Below are positions 27,956-54,096 of a stretch of 64,000 bases of DNA, one piece after another. The notes beneath the pieces were generated by a model. It saw only the letters and a program-made list of their open reading frames with translations, was not told the DNA's origin and ran no database searches. The first letter of the stretch is position 1, and every line of letters starts with the position of its first letter. The stretch is from Aestuariimicrobium kwangyangense DSM 21549. GTDB taxonomy: Bacteria > Actinomycetota > Actinomycetes > Propionibacteriales > Propionibacteriaceae. The translations under genes and the position numbers were made by a program. The stretch covers positions 620,001 to 684,000 of the forward strand of contig NZ_ATXE01000001.1 in the NCBI RefSeq assembly GCF_000421525.1. The letters are read 5' to 3'.

Positions 27956-29959
27956 ATGCCGGACGAGGCCCTGACCCGCGAGCCCACCGGTCGAGGTGCG
28001 CAGGCAGTGAGCCTGCTGCTGGTGGTGCTGGTCACGGTGGCTGCGGTGATGGTGCCGGTGCAGGCCACGTTGGCCGGGGGTGAACAGGCCTACCGCAGGA
28101 TCGGGCTCACCCACCCCGGCGCTCTGACCGGTTCGATCACGGCCGCCCTGCGCGGACTCGCGGACCTCGCCTCGGCCACCACGGTCGGCGCTCTGGTCTG
28201 GCTGCTCCTGCTGGGGCGCACCCGCAGCCGCAGGGCTGAGCACGGACGCTGCCTCGAACCAGATGACCGACTCGTCCAATCCGTGCTGCGTCATGCCGCG
28301 GGGTGGTGGCTGGCCACGGCAGCCGGCTCGGTGCTGTTCACGGCGGCCGACAGCAACGGCCTGCCCGTCGAGACCCTCAGCGACACCACCGCCTTGAGGT
28401 TCGCCCTCTTCTCCGGCGACCTTCCCCGCGCCTGGATGGTCAGCGTCGAGGCCTCGTTCGTGATCGTGCTGCTGGCCAGCCTGGCACGCGGGTGGACCCC
28501 CCACCTGGTCGCCCTCTGGGCGGCGCTGGTCGGATCCCTCGCGCCGGTGGTCGTGGGTCAGGTGTTGGTCGGTCCCAACCATGACTTCGGGGGCGACGCC
28601 GCCGTCGTCCAGACGGTGGTGGGGCAGGCGCTGCTGGGTGTCGCCCTCGTGATGGTGCTGAGGCTGGCCACCGGACAGGTCCCAGGGTGGCGCACGGGCG
28701 GGCTCCCGGCTGGGTGGATCCGGGCCGCCTGGGTGGGCTGGTTCCTCCTGGTGGCCACCGAAGTGGTCGTGACCTGGTTCAAACTGGCCGGCAGCGGTCC
28801 CACCTCGAGCCCCACGGGCATGCTGGCGCTCGTCCGGTTCGGCGCGCTGGTGCTGCTGGGTGTCGCGTTGGCTGTGATCGGTCGTCGACCCGCCGTCGGC
28901 ACTCTCGTCGGCGGACTTGCCGCGGGGGCGACGGTGGTGGTCGGCGCTGCGATGACCCGCATCTCGCCACCGCTGTTCTTCGTGCCCACCAGCATCAGCC
29001 AGACCCTGCTCGGGTTCGACGTGCCCGACGCCCCCAGTCTTCGCGTGCTGCTCACCCAGTGGCGACCCAACCTGCTGTTCTGCACCCTGGTCGCGACCGC
29101 CCTGGTCGCCTACGGCTGGGGTCTGTGGCGGCTGCGCCTGCGCCGCGAGGGCTGGCCTGCGATGAGGACGCTGGCGTGGGTGCTGGGCTGGCTGGTCGTG
29201 CTGATCGCGACCAGTTCCGGCTTCGGCAAGTACTCGGCGCCGGACTTCGCCGTGCACATGGGGGTGCACATGACGCTCAACATGCTGGCACCGGTGCTGA
29301 TCGTGCTGGGCGCCCCCATCACCTTGGCCCTGCGGGCCCTGAGGCCCTCGTCCGAACCCGACCAGGTGGGTGTCAGGGAGAAGCTGGTGGCCCTGCTGCC
29401 GTCGCGACTGTTGGCCTTCGTCTACCATCCCCTGCTCGTGTTCGCCCTCTACATCGGTTCGTACTACGGCCTCTACCTCACGGGGCTGTTCGGCGCCTTG
29501 ATGCGGTTCCACTGGGCGCACCAGCTGATGAATCTGCACTTCCTGATCGTCGGGGCCCTCTACTTCGGGCTGGTGATCGGTGTCGACCCCAACCCTCGGC
29601 GCCTGCCCCACCTCGCCAAACTGGGCATCCTGATGGCGGCCATGCCGTTCCATGCGTTCTTCGGGGTGATCCTGATGGACTCGACCCGGATCGTCGCCGA
29701 GACCTTCTACCGCTACCTCGCCCTGCCGTGGGCCCACGACCTCGCCGCCATCCAGCGGGTAGCCGGGGGAGTGGCATGGGCCGGGAGCGAGTTGCCCCTG
29801 CTGGTGGTGGTGTTGGCGCTCGGTGCCCAGTGGGCCCGACAGGACGACAAGGAGGCCAAACGCATCGATCGTCACCTCGACACCGGTCTGGACGACTCCC
29901 ACGAGGCCTACAACGTCATGCTGCAGAGGCTCGCCTCCGAAGGTGAGGCACGCCCGTGA
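27956..29959 (+). CDS. CopD-CtaG fusion: copper resistance / cytochrome oxidase assembly membrane protein
   Basis: The ATG at 27956 (MPDEALTREP) has a GAGGTG ribosome site and gives 667 residues with about 15 hydrophobic helices. The first half is CopD-like (eight helices including FSGDLPRAWMVSVEASFVIV). The second half, from about residue 400, is a CtaG/caa3 domain with FAVHMGVHMTLNMLAPVLIV, SYYGLYLTGLFG, HWAHQLMNLHFLIVGALYFG and MPFHAFFGVILM, rich in copper-binding His and Met. Likely imports or hands over copper for cytochrome oxidase. Its TGA overlaps the GTG of copA. Confidence 0.87.
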   Translation: MPDEALTREPTGRGAQAVSLLLVVLVTVAAVMVPVQATLAGGEQAYRRIGLTHPGALTGSITAALRGLADLASATTVGALVWLLLLGRTRSRRAEHGRCLEPDDRLVQSVLRHAAGWWLATAAGSVLFTAADSNGLPVETLSDTTALRFALFSGDLPRAWMVSVEASFVIVLLASLARGWTPHLVALWAALVGSLAPVVVGQVLVGPNHDFGGDAAVVQTVVGQALLGVALVMVLRLATGQVPGWRTGGLPAGWIRAAWVGWFLLVATEVVVTWFKLAGSGPTSSPTGMLALVRFGALVLLGVALAVIGRRPAVGTLVGGLAAGATVVVGAAMTRISPPLFFVPTSISQTLLGFDVPDAPSLRVLLTQWRPNLLFCTLVATALVAYGWGLWRLRLRREGWPAMRTLAWVLGWLVVLIATSSGFGKYSAPDFAVHMGVHMTLNMLAPVLIVLGAPITLALRALRPSSEPDQVGVREKLVALLPSRLLAFVYHPLLVFALYIGSYYGLYLTGLFGALMRFHWAHQLMNLHFLIVGALYFGLVIGVDPNPRRLPHLAKLGILMAAMPFHAFFGVILMDSTRIVAETFYRYLALPWAHDLAAIQRVAGGVAWAGSELPLLVVVLALGAQWARQDDKEAKRIDRHLDTGLDDSHEAYNVMLQRLASEGEARP

Positions 29960-32223
29960 GCACCGATCAGTCCGAGGTCGTCGAACTCAACATCGGCGGC
30001 ATGACCTGTGCCGCCTGCGCCACCCGTGTGCAGAAGGCACTCAACAAGCTCGACGGCGTGCAGGCGAGTGTCAACTACGCCACCGAGCGTGCCGTCATCA
30101 CCGGACCTCCGAGCAGCGACGACGGCACCCTCGTCGAACGCAGTCTGGCGGCCGTGGTCCGCGCCGGGTACGAGGCCCAGCAGCGTGCCGACGAGAGCGA
30201 CGACTGGTTGCATGACGTCTCGAGCCAGCGGATCACCTCGTTGCGGCGCCGACTCATCGTCTCGACCCTGCTGGCGGTGCCGTTGATGGACGCCACCATC
30301 ATCCTGGCCCTGTCACCCAGCCTGCGATTCGCCGGCTGGGAGTTGGTGTGCCTGCTGCTGGCGCTGCCGATCGTCAGTTGGGCCGCCTGGCCCTTCCACC
30401 GCACGACGGTCCGGAACCTGCGCCACGGTGCCGTCAGCATGGACACCCTGGTCTCGCTCGGCATTGTGGTCTCGTTCGGGTGGGCCGTACTCACCCTGCT
30501 GTGGCCCGCTCTGGCGCAGGGACAGAACCGTGGCTTCTGGTTCGGCTACGGGCGGGTGCCCGAGGGCGCCAGCAGCGTGTACCTCGACGTGGCTGCCGGC
30601 ATGACCGTGTTCCAACTGGCCGGTCGCTACTTCGAGACCCGATCACGGCGACGTGCCGCCGACGTGTTCAACGCGATCGGCAACCTCGCCGCGCCCACCA
30701 CCCGGCTGCTGGTCGACGGCGCCGAGATCGAGGTTCCCACCCTGCAGGTGCGCGCCGGTGACGTGGCCGTGGTTCGTCCGGGGGAGATCATCCCCGTCGA
30801 CGGCACCGTGGTCGAAGGGACCGCCTCGGTCGACACCAGCATGGTCACCGGCGAGGCCCAACCTCGTACCGTGGCCGTCGCCCAGGCCGTGGTCGGCGGC
30901 ACGATCTCGACCGACGGACGACTCGTCATCACCGCCACTGCGGTGGGCGCACACACCCAACTGGCCCAGATGGCCGCCTTGGCCGAACAGGCCCAGGACC
31001 GCAAGGCGCGGGTGCAGCACACGGTCGACCAGGTGATCAGCTGGTTCGTGCCAGCCGTGATCGTCTGCGCGCTGCTGGTGGCAGCTGGCTGGCTGGTGGC
31101 AGGATCCTCGGCCGCCACCGCCGTCGGCATCGGCGTCTCGGTGCTGATCATCGCCTGTCCCTGCGCCCTGGGTCTGGCCACGCCGACCGCCCTGATGGTG
31201 GGCATCGGGCGAGGTGCCAGTCTGGGCATCCTGATCAAGGGCCACGACGCCCTTGAGGCCAGCGGCGCCATCGACACGGTGGTGCTCGACAAGACCGGAA
31301 CCCTCACCACCGGCCAGTTGCAGGTGACCGACGTTGTCGTCACCGACGGCGAGTTCACGCACGGGGACGACGAGCCACTGCTCGGCTGGGCGGCAGCGCT
31401 GGAACGCGGCTCGGAACATCCGGTGGCACGTGCCATCACCTCGTTCGTGGACGAGGGCACCGCCGGGGCCTTCACGGTGGAGCAGTTCGAGGTGATGCCC
31501 GGCCTGGGCGTCAGCGGTCGCGTGGACGGTCACCACGTGGTGGTCGGCAACCGCGCCCTGTTGACCGGTCACGACATCGACCACGCAGCCGCCTCGACGA
31601 CCCTGGCGGACACGGCCGGGCCCCTGGCCCTGGTGGCCGTCGACGGCACCCTGCGTGCGGTCGTCCGGATGCGCGACGAGCTGCGACCCGGTGCCCACGA
31701 GGCAGTCGCGGCGCTGCGTCGGCAAGGTCTGCGCACGGTCCTGCTGACCGGGGACGAGCAGGCCGCGGCCGACCACATCGCCGCTGAACTGGGGATCGAC
31801 GAGTCGTTGGCCGGGGTGCTACCCACCGAGAAGGTGGCGGTGCTGGCACGCATCCAGGGCGACGGTCACAAGGTCGCCATGGTCGGCGACGGCATCAATG
31901 ACGCCGCCGCGCTGTCGACCGCCGACCTGGGCATCGCGCTGATCTCGGGCACCGACATCGCCCTGAAGTCCGCAGACATCATCCTCGTCCGCGAGCACCT
32001 GGCGGTGCTGCCCGACTCCATCGCCCTGGCCCGACGCACGCTGCGGACGATCCGGGGCAACCTGGTCTGGGCGTTCGGCTACAACGTCGCCGCCATCCCC
32101 ATCGCCGCCGCCGGGCTGCTCAACCCACTGGTCGCCGCAGGCGCGATGGCGGCCTCGTCGCTGCTCGTCACCTGGAACAGCCTGCGCCTCAACTCGTTCG
32201 CGGGAGCGGGACGCCGCCCGTGA
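29956..32223 (+). CDS. copA: Copper-exporting P1B-type ATPase
   Basis: Encodes 755 residues. One N-terminal heavy-metal domain with GGMTCAACATRV (C18, C21), followed by eight membrane helices; the membrane metal motif C401-P-C403 (IIACPCALGLATPTA), phosphorylation site D445-KTGT, HP loop (SEHPVARAI) and MVGDGINDAAAL hinge. The CPC motif and the CxxC domain point to Cu(I). GTGA overlap with the gene before and a GTGA overlap with the one after make a three-gene coupled operon. Confidence 0.95.
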   Translation: MSTDQSEVVELNIGGMTCAACATRVQKALNKLDGVQASVNYATERAVITGPPSSDDGTLVERSLAAVVRAGYEAQQRADESDDWLHDVSSQRITSLRRRLIVSTLLAVPLMDATIILALSPSLRFAGWELVCLLLALPIVSWAAWPFHRTTVRNLRHGAVSMDTLVSLGIVVSFGWAVLTLLWPALAQGQNRGFWFGYGRVPEGASSVYLDVAAGMTVFQLAGRYFETRSRRRAADVFNAIGNLAAPTTRLLVDGAEIEVPTLQVRAGDVAVVRPGEIIPVDGTVVEGTASVDTSMVTGEAQPRTVAVAQAVVGGTISTDGRLVITATAVGAHTQLAQMAALAEQAQDRKARVQHTVDQVISWFVPAVIVCALLVAAGWLVAGSSAATAVGIGVSVLIIACPCALGLATPTALMVGIGRGASLGILIKGHDALEASGAIDTVVLDKTGTLTTGQLQVTDVVVTDGEFTHGDDEPLLGWAAALERGSEHPVARAITSFVDEGTAGAFTVEQFEVMPGLGVSGRVDGHHVVVGNRALLTGHDIDHAAASTTLADTAGPLALVAVDGTLRAVVRMRDELRPGAHEAVAALRRQGLRTVLLTGDEQAAADHIAAELGIDESLAGVLPTEKVAVLARIQGDGHKVAMVGDGINDAAALSTADLGIALISGTDIALKSADIILVREHLAVLPDSIALARRTLRTIRGNLVWAFGYNVAAIPIAAAGLLNPLVAAGAMAASSLLVTWNSLRLNSFAGAGRRP

Positions 32224-50915: not shown

Positions 50916-50952
50916 CGTTGTCGGGGCTGGGGGTGCTGCCCCGGAGCTGCAG

Positions 50953-51119
50953 CAGCTGCCCTCGTTTCGCCCCAGCTGCCCTCGTTCGTTGCAGTTGCCC
51001 CCGTCCAGGGGTAGGGCAGGTGCACCGCGAGGGGGCAGGTGGTGCGCGATGAGGGCAGGTGCGCCGGACGCGGGCAGGTGGTGCGCGATGAGGGCAGGTG
51101 CGCCGGACGCGGGCAGGTG
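50953..51119. repeat. Inverted array of 9-bp motifs at 19-20 bp spacing (array B)
   Basis: Three left units CAGCTGCCC, CAGCTGCCC and CAGTTGCCC start at 50953, 50973 and 50992. Six right units GGGCAGGTG start at 51014, 51033, 51053, 51072, 51092 and 51111. Steps are 19 or 20 bp throughout. The last four right units form two copies of a 39-bp higher-order repeat. Same plan as array A. A single unit GGGCAGCTG with similar flanks is at 61016-61024. Confidence 0.88.
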
Positions 51120-51181
51120 GACGAGCGGTCGGCACCTGCGGCACCGATCCAACCCCCGGCTCCAACCACCCCGGCAGCACG

Positions 51182-51214
51182 ACGCCCCGCCCGGCTCGAG
51201 GCCGGACGGGGCGT
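51182..51214 (-). terminator. Hairpin beyond tRNA-Ser(GGA)
   Basis: ACGCCCCG and CGGGGCGT pair around a CCGGC/GCCGG inner stem. It lies 44 nt after the 3' end of the tRNA, which is read on the minus strand. Confidence 0.7.
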
Positions 51215-51257
51215 TTCCCTGATCCACAACTGGTCGGAAATCCCAGCTGTTCAGGGC

Positions 51258-51345
51258 TGGCGGAGGATACGGGATTTGAACCCGTGAGGGCTTGCACCCA
51301 ACCCGCTTTCCAAGCGAGCGCCATAGGCCACTAGGCGAATCCTCC
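51258..51345 (-). tRNA. tRNA-Ser(GGA)
   Basis: Minus-strand reading gives acceptor GGAGGAT pairing with ATCCTCC, discriminator G and an encoded CCA. The anticodon stem-loop CGCTTGGAAAGCG gives anticodon GGA, with a class II long variable arm (GGGTTGGGTGCAAGCCCT region). T loop GGTTCAAATCCC. Confidence 0.96.
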
Positions 51346-51406: not shown

Positions 51407-51649
51407 TCAGCGCTCGTGCATCAGGGCGGAGCGCTCAAGGTACTCGTCAGGGGTGATCTCACCGTCGGCGAGGCGCCCAGCCAGCACTTCGGAGGGAGAC
51501 GGCTTCTCCGGTGCCGACGGACGAGCACCCAGCATCCGTGGGTGTGACTGGCCCGCGAGGTGTTCCCGGCCCGCCCAGGTGAGGGGTCCCACTCGTCCCC
51601 GCGTGTACAGCAGCACGACCAGCAGCACGACGGCTGCGCCGACGATCAC
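51407..51649 (-). CDS. Small SHOCT-domain membrane protein
   Basis: Encodes 80 residues from GTG 51649. One N-terminal helix (IVGAAVVLLVVLLYTRGRVG) and a C-terminal SHOCT motif (LAGRLADGEITPDEYLERSA). Its start overlaps the stop of the next upstream SHOCT gene (GTGA), so both are made together. Likely a partner or duplicate of that protein. Confidence 0.75.
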   Translation of the reverse strand: MIVGAAVVLLVVLLYTRGRVGPLTWAGREHLAGQSHPRMLGARPSAPEKPSPSEVLAGRLADGEITPDEYLERSALMHER

Positions 51650-52032
51650 TGGTCTGCCTTCGGCGGAGGGGTGGTTCCGGAGGGGCTGCGGAGCACGGAA
51701 CTGCGCTCGAGGAACTCCTCAGGAGTGATGTCGCCCGTGGCCAGACGCATCTTCAGCGTCTCGAAGGCCTGGTCCTCGGCGGCCCTCGCCGACGTCCAGC
51801 CCGAACCCGGTCCGGGGGTCGAGCCGTTGCGGGTGCGGTCGAGCCGGATCGGCCCGACCCGTCCCTTCGTCAACAGGAGCACGACGACGACGATCAGGGC
51901 GAGCACCAGCAGCAGGCCCGGCAGGAATCCGAGGAATCCGAATCCGTATCCGTGGTGGCCCCCCATGGGGCCACGGTTCATGTGCATCTCGAGCAGCGGC
52001 AGCTGGAGTGCAGGAAGCAGTGTGGTCAACAT
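51646..52032 (-). CDS. SHOCT-domain membrane protein with Met/His-rich N-terminal segment
   Basis: The ATG at 52032 gives 128 residues; a GTG at 52074 would add 14. The N-terminal segment EMHMNRGPMGGHHGYG precedes a membrane helix (LGFLPGLLLVLALIVVVVLL), and the C-terminus ends with a SHOCT motif (MRLATGDITPEEFLERSSVL). The Met/His cluster lies before the helix and may be extracytoplasmic, a plausible metal ligand. Divergent from the histidine kinase, with a shared palindrome between them. Confidence 0.75.
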   Translation of the reverse strand: MLTTLLPALQLPLLEMHMNRGPMGGHHGYGFGFLGFLPGLLLVLALIVVVVLLLTKGRVGPIRLDRTRNGSTPGPGSGWTSARAAEDQAFETLKMRLATGDITPEEFLERSSVLRSPSGTTPPPKADQ

Positions 52033-52099
52033 GCATCCAGTGAACTCCGCGCCGGCCGCGCGCACATCGGTCACGGTGTTGATCTTTGAACCACGAGAC

Positions 52100-52117
52100 C
52101 TACGTCAACTGACGTAG
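52100..52117. promoter_or_regulatory. Perfect palindrome, probable response-regulator operator
   Basis: CTACGTCA, two bases, TGACGTAG. The 18-bp element lies in the divergent region between the SHOCT gene (start 52032) and the kinase gene (start 52175). It is a good candidate for autoregulation by the adjacent LuxR-type response regulator. Confidence 0.6.
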
Positions 52118-52162
52118 TCGAATCTCGTCCCGACAACCGATGTCATCGCCGCCCCGGCCTCG

Positions 52163-52168
52163 TAGGCT
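52163..52168 (+). promoter_or_regulatory. -10 box, leaderless start
   Basis: TAGGCT ends 6 nt before GTG 52175. Confidence 0.55.
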
Positions 52169-52174
52169 CAAGAT

Positions 52175-53443
52175 GTGACCACAGGGATGCCCGCACTGAC
52201 CGAGCGCACCCGCGCGCACGGGTGGAGGTGGCTGCTCGACGTGGCCCTCGCCGTCGCAGTCGGGTGGGTGATGTCGATCGCGTGGGTGGCCGTTGCCACC
52301 CCCGACCGCATGGGCATGGGCATGGGTCGGGGCCGGATGCGTCCCGAGGTCGAGCTGACCTGGTCGCCCATCGTCCAGCTTGCGGTCGCGACCGTCGCCG
52401 TCGCGGTGGTGCTCGGTCGCGTGCTGCCCCGCACCGGTTGGGTGCTGGGGCTGGTCGGCGTGGCCGGCTACCTCGCGGCGGGTGGATCCCCGGTCGCCGC
52501 CGTGGTGGCAGCGATCGTCCTCGGGGTCCGGTTGCTGATCCTCTCGTCCGTTCCCGTGACCACGCCCGGGAGCGCGGAGTCGGACCGCCACCCTTCACAC
52601 CTCGCCCCCGCCCGGCTGTGGCCCTGGCTGGTGGCGCTGGTGCCCGCCTACCTCGCCAACGGTCTGGGCGACGGTCACCCGTGGGTCTCGGTGTTCACCA
52701 CCGCGACCATGCTGGTGTGGACGACCCTCCCCCTGGTCGCCGCCGCGGCCTTCCTGGCCCGCCGGGGGCAACGGGTGAGGGAACGAGCCCTGGAACTCGA
52801 GGGGGTGGCACGGGCCGAACGGTTGCGCCTGGCCCGAGACATCCACGACGTCGTCGGGCACTCCCTGTCGCTGATCTCGCTGCAGTCGGGAGTCGCGCTG
52901 CGAGTGCTCGACACCGACCCGACCCAGGCGAGACGCAGTCTCGAGGCGATCCGGCAGACCTCGAAGGAAGCGCTCGCCGAGGTGCGCACCACCTTGGGCG
53001 TCTTCCGCGAGTCCGATGAGGCACCGCTCGCTCCCACCCCCGGTCTGGTCGCCATCGAACGTCTGGTGCGGCAGGTGGCCTCGTCCGGTGTCTCCGTCAC
53101 GTTGACTGAACTCCGGGATCCGGCGGAGGTTCCCGCCGTGGTGCAGTCGGTGGCGCACCGCGTCGTCCAGGAGTCCGTCACCAATGCCCTGCGCCACGCC
53201 CCCGGCTCACCGATCACCGTCGTGGCGGTCGTCGTGGGCCGCGACCTGAGGGTGCGGGTCGCCGACACCGGTGCTCCGTCCCTCCCGATCCGCGAGGGCA
53301 ATGGTCTGACAGGCATGCGTGAGCGGGTGCGCGCGATCGGGGGGACGATGACCATCGACGCCGGGCCGACGGGGTTCGCGGTCATGGCCACCCTGCCGCT
53401 CGAACCGCCACCCGGTGTCGTCCCGGCCGGGACTGACACATGA
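52175..53443 (+). CDS. Sensor histidine kinase (HisKA_3 type)
   Basis: Encodes 422 residues from GTG 52175. Several N-terminal helices (about 20-41, 66-86, 90-130, 150-195) with a first outside loop carrying RMGMGMGRGRM, four methionines in eleven residues. The dimerisation domain has the phospho-acceptor H224 (ARDIHDVVGHSLSL), and the ATPase domain shows VVQESVTNALRHAPGSPI, RVADTGAP and GLTGMRERV. NarL/LiaS-type kinase. Its stop overlaps the regulator start (ATGA). Confidence 0.9.
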   Translation: MTTGMPALTERTRAHGWRWLLDVALAVAVGWVMSIAWVAVATPDRMGMGMGRGRMRPEVELTWSPIVQLAVATVAVAVVLGRVLPRTGWVLGLVGVAGYLAAGGSPVAAVVAAIVLGVRLLILSSVPVTTPGSAESDRHPSHLAPARLWPWLVALVPAYLANGLGDGHPWVSVFTTATMLVWTTLPLVAAAAFLARRGQRVRERALELEGVARAERLRLARDIHDVVGHSLSLISLQSGVALRVLDTDPTQARRSLEAIRQTSKEALAEVRTTLGVFRESDEAPLAPTPGLVAIERLVRQVASSGVSVTLTELRDPAEVPAVVQSVAHRVVQESVTNALRHAPGSPITVVAVVVGRDLRVRVADTGAPSLPIREGNGLTGMRERVRAIGGTMTIDAGPTGFAVMATLPLEPPPGVVPAGTDT

Positions 53444-54096
53444 TCAGCGTGCTGCTGGTGGACGACCAACCGCTCGTCCGGATGGGGTTGCGCGCGCTGC
53501 TCGATGCGGAGGGCGACATCGAGGTGGTGGCCGAGGGCGGCGACGGGGCCGAGGCCCTCCCCCTGGTGCGCGTCCAACACCCCGACGTGGTGCTGATGGA
53601 CATCCGCATGCCCGGTCTCGACGGTCTGACGGCGTTGCGGCAGATCGTCGAGGATCCCTCACTGTCGGGCTCGAAGGTGGTGATGCTGACGACCTTCGAG
53701 TTGGACGAGTACGTCTTCGCCGCGCTCGAGGCCGGTGCCTCGGGTTTCGTGATCAAGGACGCCGAGCCCGACGAGATCGTCCGTGCGGTGCGCGCTGCCG
53801 CAGCCGGAGAGGGGATGCTCTCGCCCACGGTGACCAAGCGGGTGATCGGCCGTTTCGCCTCACCCGCTGGCCACGGACGACGGGCACGCCCCCACCCGGG
53901 TCTCAACCAACTCACCGAGCGGGAGAAGGAGGTGCTGGGGCTGGTGGCCGAGGGCCTGAACAATGACGAGATCGCCGGCCGACTGGTGATCTCCAAGGCC
54001 ACAGCGCGCACCCACGTCGGCAACATCCTCGGCAAGCTGGGGGCCAGGGATCGCGCCCAGTTGGTGGTGATCGCCTACCAATCGGGGTTGGCCTGA
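53440..54096 (+). CDS. LuxR-family response regulator
   Basis: Encodes 218 residues. Receiver domain with phospho-acceptor D54 (VVLMDIRMPG) and the conserved Lys in SGFVIKDAEPD. The C-terminal LuxR helix-turn-helix (LTEREKEVLGLVAEGLNNDE) spans about residues 155-215. Works with the preceding kinase, and the likely target is the palindrome at 52100. Confidence 0.93.
   Translation: MISVLLVDDQPLVRMGLRALLDAEGDIEVVAEGGDGAEALPLVRVQHPDVVLMDIRMPGLDGLTALRQIVEDPSLSGSKVVMLTTFELDEYVFAALEAGASGFVIKDAEPDEIVRAVRAAAAGEGMLSPTVTKRVIGRFASPAGHGRRARPHPGLNQLTEREKEVLGLVAEGLNNDEIAGRLVISKATARTHVGNILGKLGARDRAQLVVIAYQSGLA

Follow-up and report, generated by a model that had tools for sequence, protein, structure and literature searches.

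The genome of Aestuariimicrobium kwangyangense DSM 21549 encodes a sensor histidine kinase and a response regulator opposite a pair of small SHOCT proteins, and Met/His-rich stretches occur in the outside segments of both the kinase and one of the SHOCT proteins. Does this arrangement constitute a regulatory unit of its own, and does it sense a soft metal? An earlier reading of the DNA alone (here termed the sequence-only reading) had proposed a circuit that senses copper or silver at the membrane, separate from the CopA operon. Both questions were addressed by comparing the locus with its relatives. All positions refer to the window, i.e., the whole stretch of 64,000 nucleotides analyzed (contig NZ_ATXE01000001.1, positions 620,001 to 684,000).

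A two-component system divergent from two SHOCT genes

The locus consists of four genes and is bounded by a tRNA-Ser gene and the region before dnaX. The kinase and regulator genes (plus strand) overlap by 4 bp, as do the two SHOCT genes (minus strand). Its features are the following:

51258-51345, minus strand: tRNA-Ser (GGA), directly beyond SHOCT gene 2
51407-51649, minus strand: SHOCT protein 2, 80 aa (Pfam SHOCT below cut-off)
51646-52032, minus strand: SHOCT protein 1, 128 aa (Pfam SHOCT below cut-off, hydropathy, alignment of 26 relatives)
51949-51987, minus strand: MHMNRGPMGGHHG, the segment of SHOCT protein 1 before its helix (residues 16-28)
52100-52117: dyad CTACGTCA-AC-TGACGTAG, probable operator common to both transcripts (conserved in relatives)
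52163-52168, plus strand: TAGGCT, probable -10 box of the kinase-regulator transcript (spacing conservation)
52175-53443, plus strand: HisKA_3 sensor histidine kinase, 422 aa (Pfam, family relatives)
52307-52339, plus strand: RMGMGMGRGRM in the first loop of the kinase (residues 45-55)
53440-54096, plus strand: NarL/LuxR-type response regulator, 218 aa (Pfam Response_reg and GerE)

Both Met/His stretches named in the sequence-only reading are present, one in the first outside loop of the kinase, the other before the helix of the divergent SHOCT protein. The opposite genes do share a palindrome, a perfect dyad of 8+2+8 bp that recurs in relatives, and the circuit is indeed separate from CopA, the gene for which (29956-32223) lies about 19 kb from the module. 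SHOCT protein 2 falls outside the range covered by that reading (51646-54096). Between a glucosidase gene and the tRNA-Ser gene (about 50920-51230), apparent short tandem repeats were observed, with LPASGAPALIAHH repeated in a minus frame.

The kinase matched HisKA_3 (1.6e-21) and HATPase_c (7.3e-8), the regulator Response_reg (6.3e-28) and GerE (4.1e-18). With every domain above the Pfam cut-offs, a HisKA_3/HATPase kinase adjacent to a receiver-GerE regulator constitutes a two-component system, which is in itself of a known kind. Several hydrophobic helices make up the N-terminus of the kinase; its topology was read by eye, which places RMGMGMGRGRM between the first two hydrophobic stretches. 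The nearest solved structure is that of DesK (2.8e-19, the match spanning residues 201-397 only), and those nearest to the regulator are VraR (1.1e-41) and NarL (1.6e-39). Neither HAMP nor a CusS-type domain was matched by the kinase in Pfam, and the NCBIfam LiaS model failed (55 bits vs a cut-off of 450).

SHOCT protein 1 comprises a Met/His/Gly-rich N-terminal segment, one transmembrane helix, and a C-terminal SHOCT domain (PF09851, E 0.001); its start was set at the ATG at 52032, which the relatives support (the mechanical ORF extends to 52074). SHOCT protein 2 begins with a transmembrane helix followed by SHOCT (E 0.00068) and has no outside segment. Both scores, 19.2 and 19.7 bits, respectively, are below the curated cut-off of 27, which is exceeded by module SHOCT proteins of some relatives (e.g., G156, G165, G155, and G166). 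These two are the only SHOCT matches better than E 0.01 in their own genome; the other models matched by the accessory genes were DUF1707-like and, weakly, VbhA. A separate second SHOCT frame follows in 6 of the 27 relatives checked (L002, L031, L032, L033, L035, and L036). One further relative (L039:2790-3170) encodes a single protein containing two SHOCT repeats, resembling a fusion of SHOCT genes 1 and 2, and in another (L142; G196 contig 15, 10579-21598) several extra SHOCT paralogues, including L211, lie close to the module. SHOCT proteins are proposed as membrane-stress partners of two-component systems in the accessible part of one study (PMC11237479). According to the accessible part of the original SHOCT paper, a direct test did not support oligomerization by this domain (PMC3581485), which weakens the case for SHOCT-SHOCT assembly.

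The module is conserved within the family

Searching the kinase in 198 genomes of the same family (E ≤ 1e-38) yielded 35 places in 33 genomes, 30 of them with loci. At 28 of the 30, a divergent gene for a single-TM SHOCT protein is present. The other two (L016 and L053), which had been dropped early as paralogues, before the set of 28 was formed, and were checked afterwards, lack the dyad as well. Two of the five places without loci (L215 and L210) contained SHOCT and an opposite kinase motif. Among the 28, the reading frame of the SHOCT gene is broken in L049. The closest relative of the window kinase, L031, is 55% identical to it.

A SHOCT profile made from an alignment of 26 rows matched 67 of the 245 genomes in the order (E ≤ 1e-6). 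Every hit below 1e-18 fell within the same family, and 27 genomes outside it gave weaker ones (best, 3.5e-13). In the single same-genus genome, which is 90% complete, no copy of the module was detected. Across 21 regions (20 relatives plus the window, up to about 17 kb, two of them shorter), clusters for the kinase, SHOCT, and the regulator were recovered in 19, 17, and 16, respectively; these counts are lower than those from direct reading because ORF picking was crude. The next most widely shared flanking gene clusters occurred in only 3 of the 21 regions. In three genomes of one genus (L151, L152, and L154), the module has hrcA- and dnaJ-like genes as neighbors. When named genomes were scanned in full with the kinase alignment, 563 relatives were returned; none of the 80 kept had a divergent SHOCT gene by pattern, and this set, which thus appears to consist mostly of kinase-class paralogues, was set aside.

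Judged by sequence comparison, the recurrence of the divergent layout together with the dyad is more than chance, and the SHOCT-kinase-regulator locus is a real, conserved, and self-contained regulatory module. A search of one open literature library indicated that it is apparently undescribed.

A dyad at fixed spacing is the probable operator

A degenerate form of the dyad, STACGYNNNNNNRCGTAS, was drawn up after seeing the same loci and searched within 230 bp downstream of the SHOCT start codon position. It was present without mismatch at 22 of the 28 loci and with at most one mismatch at 26, compared with means of 0.02 and 0.37 (maxima 1 and 3), respectively, in 300 sets of resampled controls. 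Two loci (L041 and L035) contained two candidate dyads each, and the best match was counted. The exceptions are L002, which has the genes but no dyad (three mismatches), and L015 (two mismatches).

The position of the dyad is constrained on both sides. Its distance to the SHOCT ATG is 57/58 bp at 19 of the 26 loci, 67 bp at six, and 180 bp at one, the two main spacing classes differing by about one helical turn. Toward the kinase, 20 of the 26 loci have a TAnnnT box at 53-55 bp, measured from the dyad centre (it is missing there from six), whereas every other 3-bp bin contained at most three. In the window, this box is TAGGCT, 54 bp from the dyad centre; it ends six bases ahead of the GTG start, and the kinase transcript is thus probably leaderless. 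In relatives including L031, L002, L032, L033, and L039, the box is likewise followed by a start codon at a distance of six or seven bases. The assignment as a -10 box follows from spacing conservation only, and a standard sigma-70 scan of the region returned no promoter.

The degenerate dyad occurs once in the 3.0-Mb genome of the organism, namely, at the module (reversed-pattern control, two). In 11 relatives, there were between 0 and 11 copies per genome, the module locus being the only one in G061, G155, and G166. The contexts of four extra matches (L228, L229, L238, and L242), inspected by eye, had nothing in common. In G023 (contig 1, 647825-647905), a 21-bp tandem array located apart from the module contains four dyad matches. 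The exact dyad was found in 3 of 394 genomes of the class, its control pattern in 5; by eye, neither a kinase nor a SHOCT gene was seen in the other two genomes (L158 and L159), and the exact dyad alone was rejected as a marker outside the family. TACG-type dyads lie near 11 of the 80 listed DesK-like kinase loci at which no SHOCT gene was detected; the site may thus reflect the class of regulator. The words ACATCGG (52064-52070) and CCGATGT (52137-52143) flank the dyad on its left and right, with similar words in the same places in many relatives, and possibly form a second regulatory element.

The outside segments single out no soft metal

If the kinase and the SHOCT protein bound Cu(I) or Ag(I) through their outside Met/His segments, the circuit would be a metal sensor, and the pooled composition of the loops points that way: across the 28 kinases, Met accounts for 42 of 836 residues in loop 1 (5.0%) vs 1.8% in whole kinases. 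The excess is concentrated in one clade. The kinase tree comprises two groups, 15 nearer sequences and 13 others, with 37 Met in 405 loop residues and 5 in 431, respectively; two or more Met occur in 11 of the 15 nearer loops but in none of the 13, which are rich in Gly, Pro, and Trp. The Met run itself is, however, not conserved. Homologous kinases largely lack the motif, as 17 of the 28 loops contain no or one Met—that of L031 has one Met and one His—and none contains Cys. Furthermore, the run in the window coincides with a GCATGG tandem repeat (3.2 copies, 52308-52326), so slippage could have produced it.

Met contents of loop and SHOCT segment were correlated (Spearman 0.71, the highest among the residues tested), which again favors metal binding. 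After independent contrasts, computed on the tree of the kinase catalytic domain, this correlation faded (r 0.33, p 0.09), and Glu, Trp, and Ala performed equally well or better (0.37-0.41). In overall composition, the two segments of the same genome resembled each other more than pairs permuted within the clade (0.673 vs 0.638, p 0.0016; p 0.014 with 19 representatives). The two outside segments may therefore share a function, which is in line with metal sensing although no soft metal is singled out. The same likeness argues against the notion that the segments are weakly constrained, low-complexity spacers and that the signal is read inside the membrane as in DesK. Such spacers would account for loops that are rich in Gly and Pro (17.5% and 18.1% pooled), 16-41 residues long, and variable in sequence, for the hexamer repeat in the window, and for a run of nine His in the SHOCT outside segment of L042 (2899-3294), yet every SHOCT segment retains His. 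We consider spacers unlikely, if conceivable.

At least one His precedes the helix in all 28 module SHOCT proteins, and at least one is present in 20 of the 28 kinase loops. As the only potential ligand or titratable residue retained in every SHOCT segment, His is compatible with metal binding and also with sensing of outside pH or of another cation, in which case Met would be incidental. Against the latter, the SHOCT alignment contains no fixed His column, and the His contents of the two segments are uncorrelated (PIC r 0.04). Moreover, orphan single-helix SHOCT proteins (L211, L213, L220, and L222) without a kinase motif within about 1.5 kb also have a His-rich segment, which weighs against pH, cation, and metal sensing alike, albeit from a small control of four. 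It was used in place of the 30 best Pfam SHOCT matches, of which 27 were readable and none had a transmembrane helix; L219 and L223-L226 were left out because they contained no readable SHOCT with the pattern used. Sensing of pH or another cation thus appears rather improbable.

The surroundings of the module bear on metal sensing as well. No copper-type ATPase with CPC/DKTGT motifs was present among the predicted ORFs of the 20 relatives' regions and the window region, and no copper family was among the 25 commonest of the 104 Pfam families in 109 flanking proteins. The kinase, as stated above, has no HAMP or CusS-type domain. An external hint in favor is that silver induced a SHOCT membrane protein in the haloarchaeon Haloferax, as reported in the accessible part of PMC10694973. 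Taken together, we regard metal sensing by these segments as improbable. Of the proposed copper or silver circuit, the self-standing circuit with its shared palindrome was supported, whereas its metal specificity was not: neither the class of kinase and regulator nor the neighborhoods of relatives provide a link to metals. The Met-rich loops of the nearer clade, the raw Met correlation, and His in 28 of 28 SHOCT proteins are what is left for it. The copper/silver inference is accordingly weak and unsupported by comparison, although it could still apply to the Met-rich clade.

Proposed mechanism and significance

Layout, dyad conservation, spacing, and uniqueness emerge from the comparison, and on balance they lead us to favor, with slightly more confidence than doubt, an autoregulated envelope-sensing two-component system whose local output consists of SHOCT membrane proteins. 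In this scheme, the DesK-like kinase with its multiple helices would monitor the condition of the membrane or envelope and phosphorylate the NarL-type regulator. The latter would then bind the 18-bp dyad between the genes and thereby set both the kinase-regulator transcript and the divergent SHOCT pair. The SHOCT proteins are predicted to have a short segment rich in His, Gly, and Pro on the outside and the SHOCT hairpin on the inside; they would, most likely, feed back on the kinase or recruit a membrane partner, in a manner resembling LiaF with LiaSR or VraT with VraSR. As DesK is a thermosensor, an envelope signal is only one option.

A broader and clearly more tentative reading, which we consider rather doubtful as a whole, is that the module represents a dedicated class of two-component systems in which a single-helix SHOCT protein is the partner of the kinase and regulation is confined to the module itself via one phased operator. 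The SHOCT outside segment and the first loop of the kinase would, in such a class, form a co-evolving sensing surface, the ligand of which might be a soft metal in the Met-rich clade and another one in the Pro/Trp-rich clade.

Hardly any role has been assigned to SHOCT proteins, which are common. One SHOCT protein with a kinase, a regulator, and an operator at fixed spacing provides a compact system for direct tests of SHOCT function, and also lets sensing by a DesK-like kinase in actinobacteria be tested. The case further illustrates that, unless relatives are compared, the presence of Met and His in a short outside loop says little about metal sensing.

Comparison with known systems

With CusRS/CopRS, the module shares Met and His in an outside stretch. 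Those systems pair a HAMP/HisKA kinase with an OmpR-type regulator, whereas HisKA_3 and GerE, and no HAMP match, are found here. Conserved outside metal ligands are absent, given the scarcity of Met and the lack of Cys in the loops, and neither the motif search nor the top Pfam families revealed copper genes at the relatives.

SHOCT-like proteins also occur beside phage-shock and two-component genes. Such membrane partners near two-component systems are discussed in the accessible part of PMC11237479, and a membrane partner near two-component genes is what the present locus has in common with them; a three-part module of kinase, regulator, and SHOCT protein is not described in that part. No PspA, PspC, or Toastrack gene was identified at this locus.

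The likeness to DesK-DesR, the membrane thermosensor of Bacillus subtilis, lies in the multi-helix HisKA_3/HATPase kinase and the NarL-type regulator. The target of DesR is a desaturase, in place of which a divergent SHOCT pair with a shared operator is found here. The envelope-stress systems LiaFSR and VraTSR, which are autoregulated, likewise combine a HisKA_3 kinase with a NarL-type regulator (VraR being the best match) and an accessory membrane protein. The N-terminus of the present kinase differs from theirs, the LiaS model failed, and the accessory protein is not LiaF or VraT but a divergently transcribed single-helix SHOCT protein.
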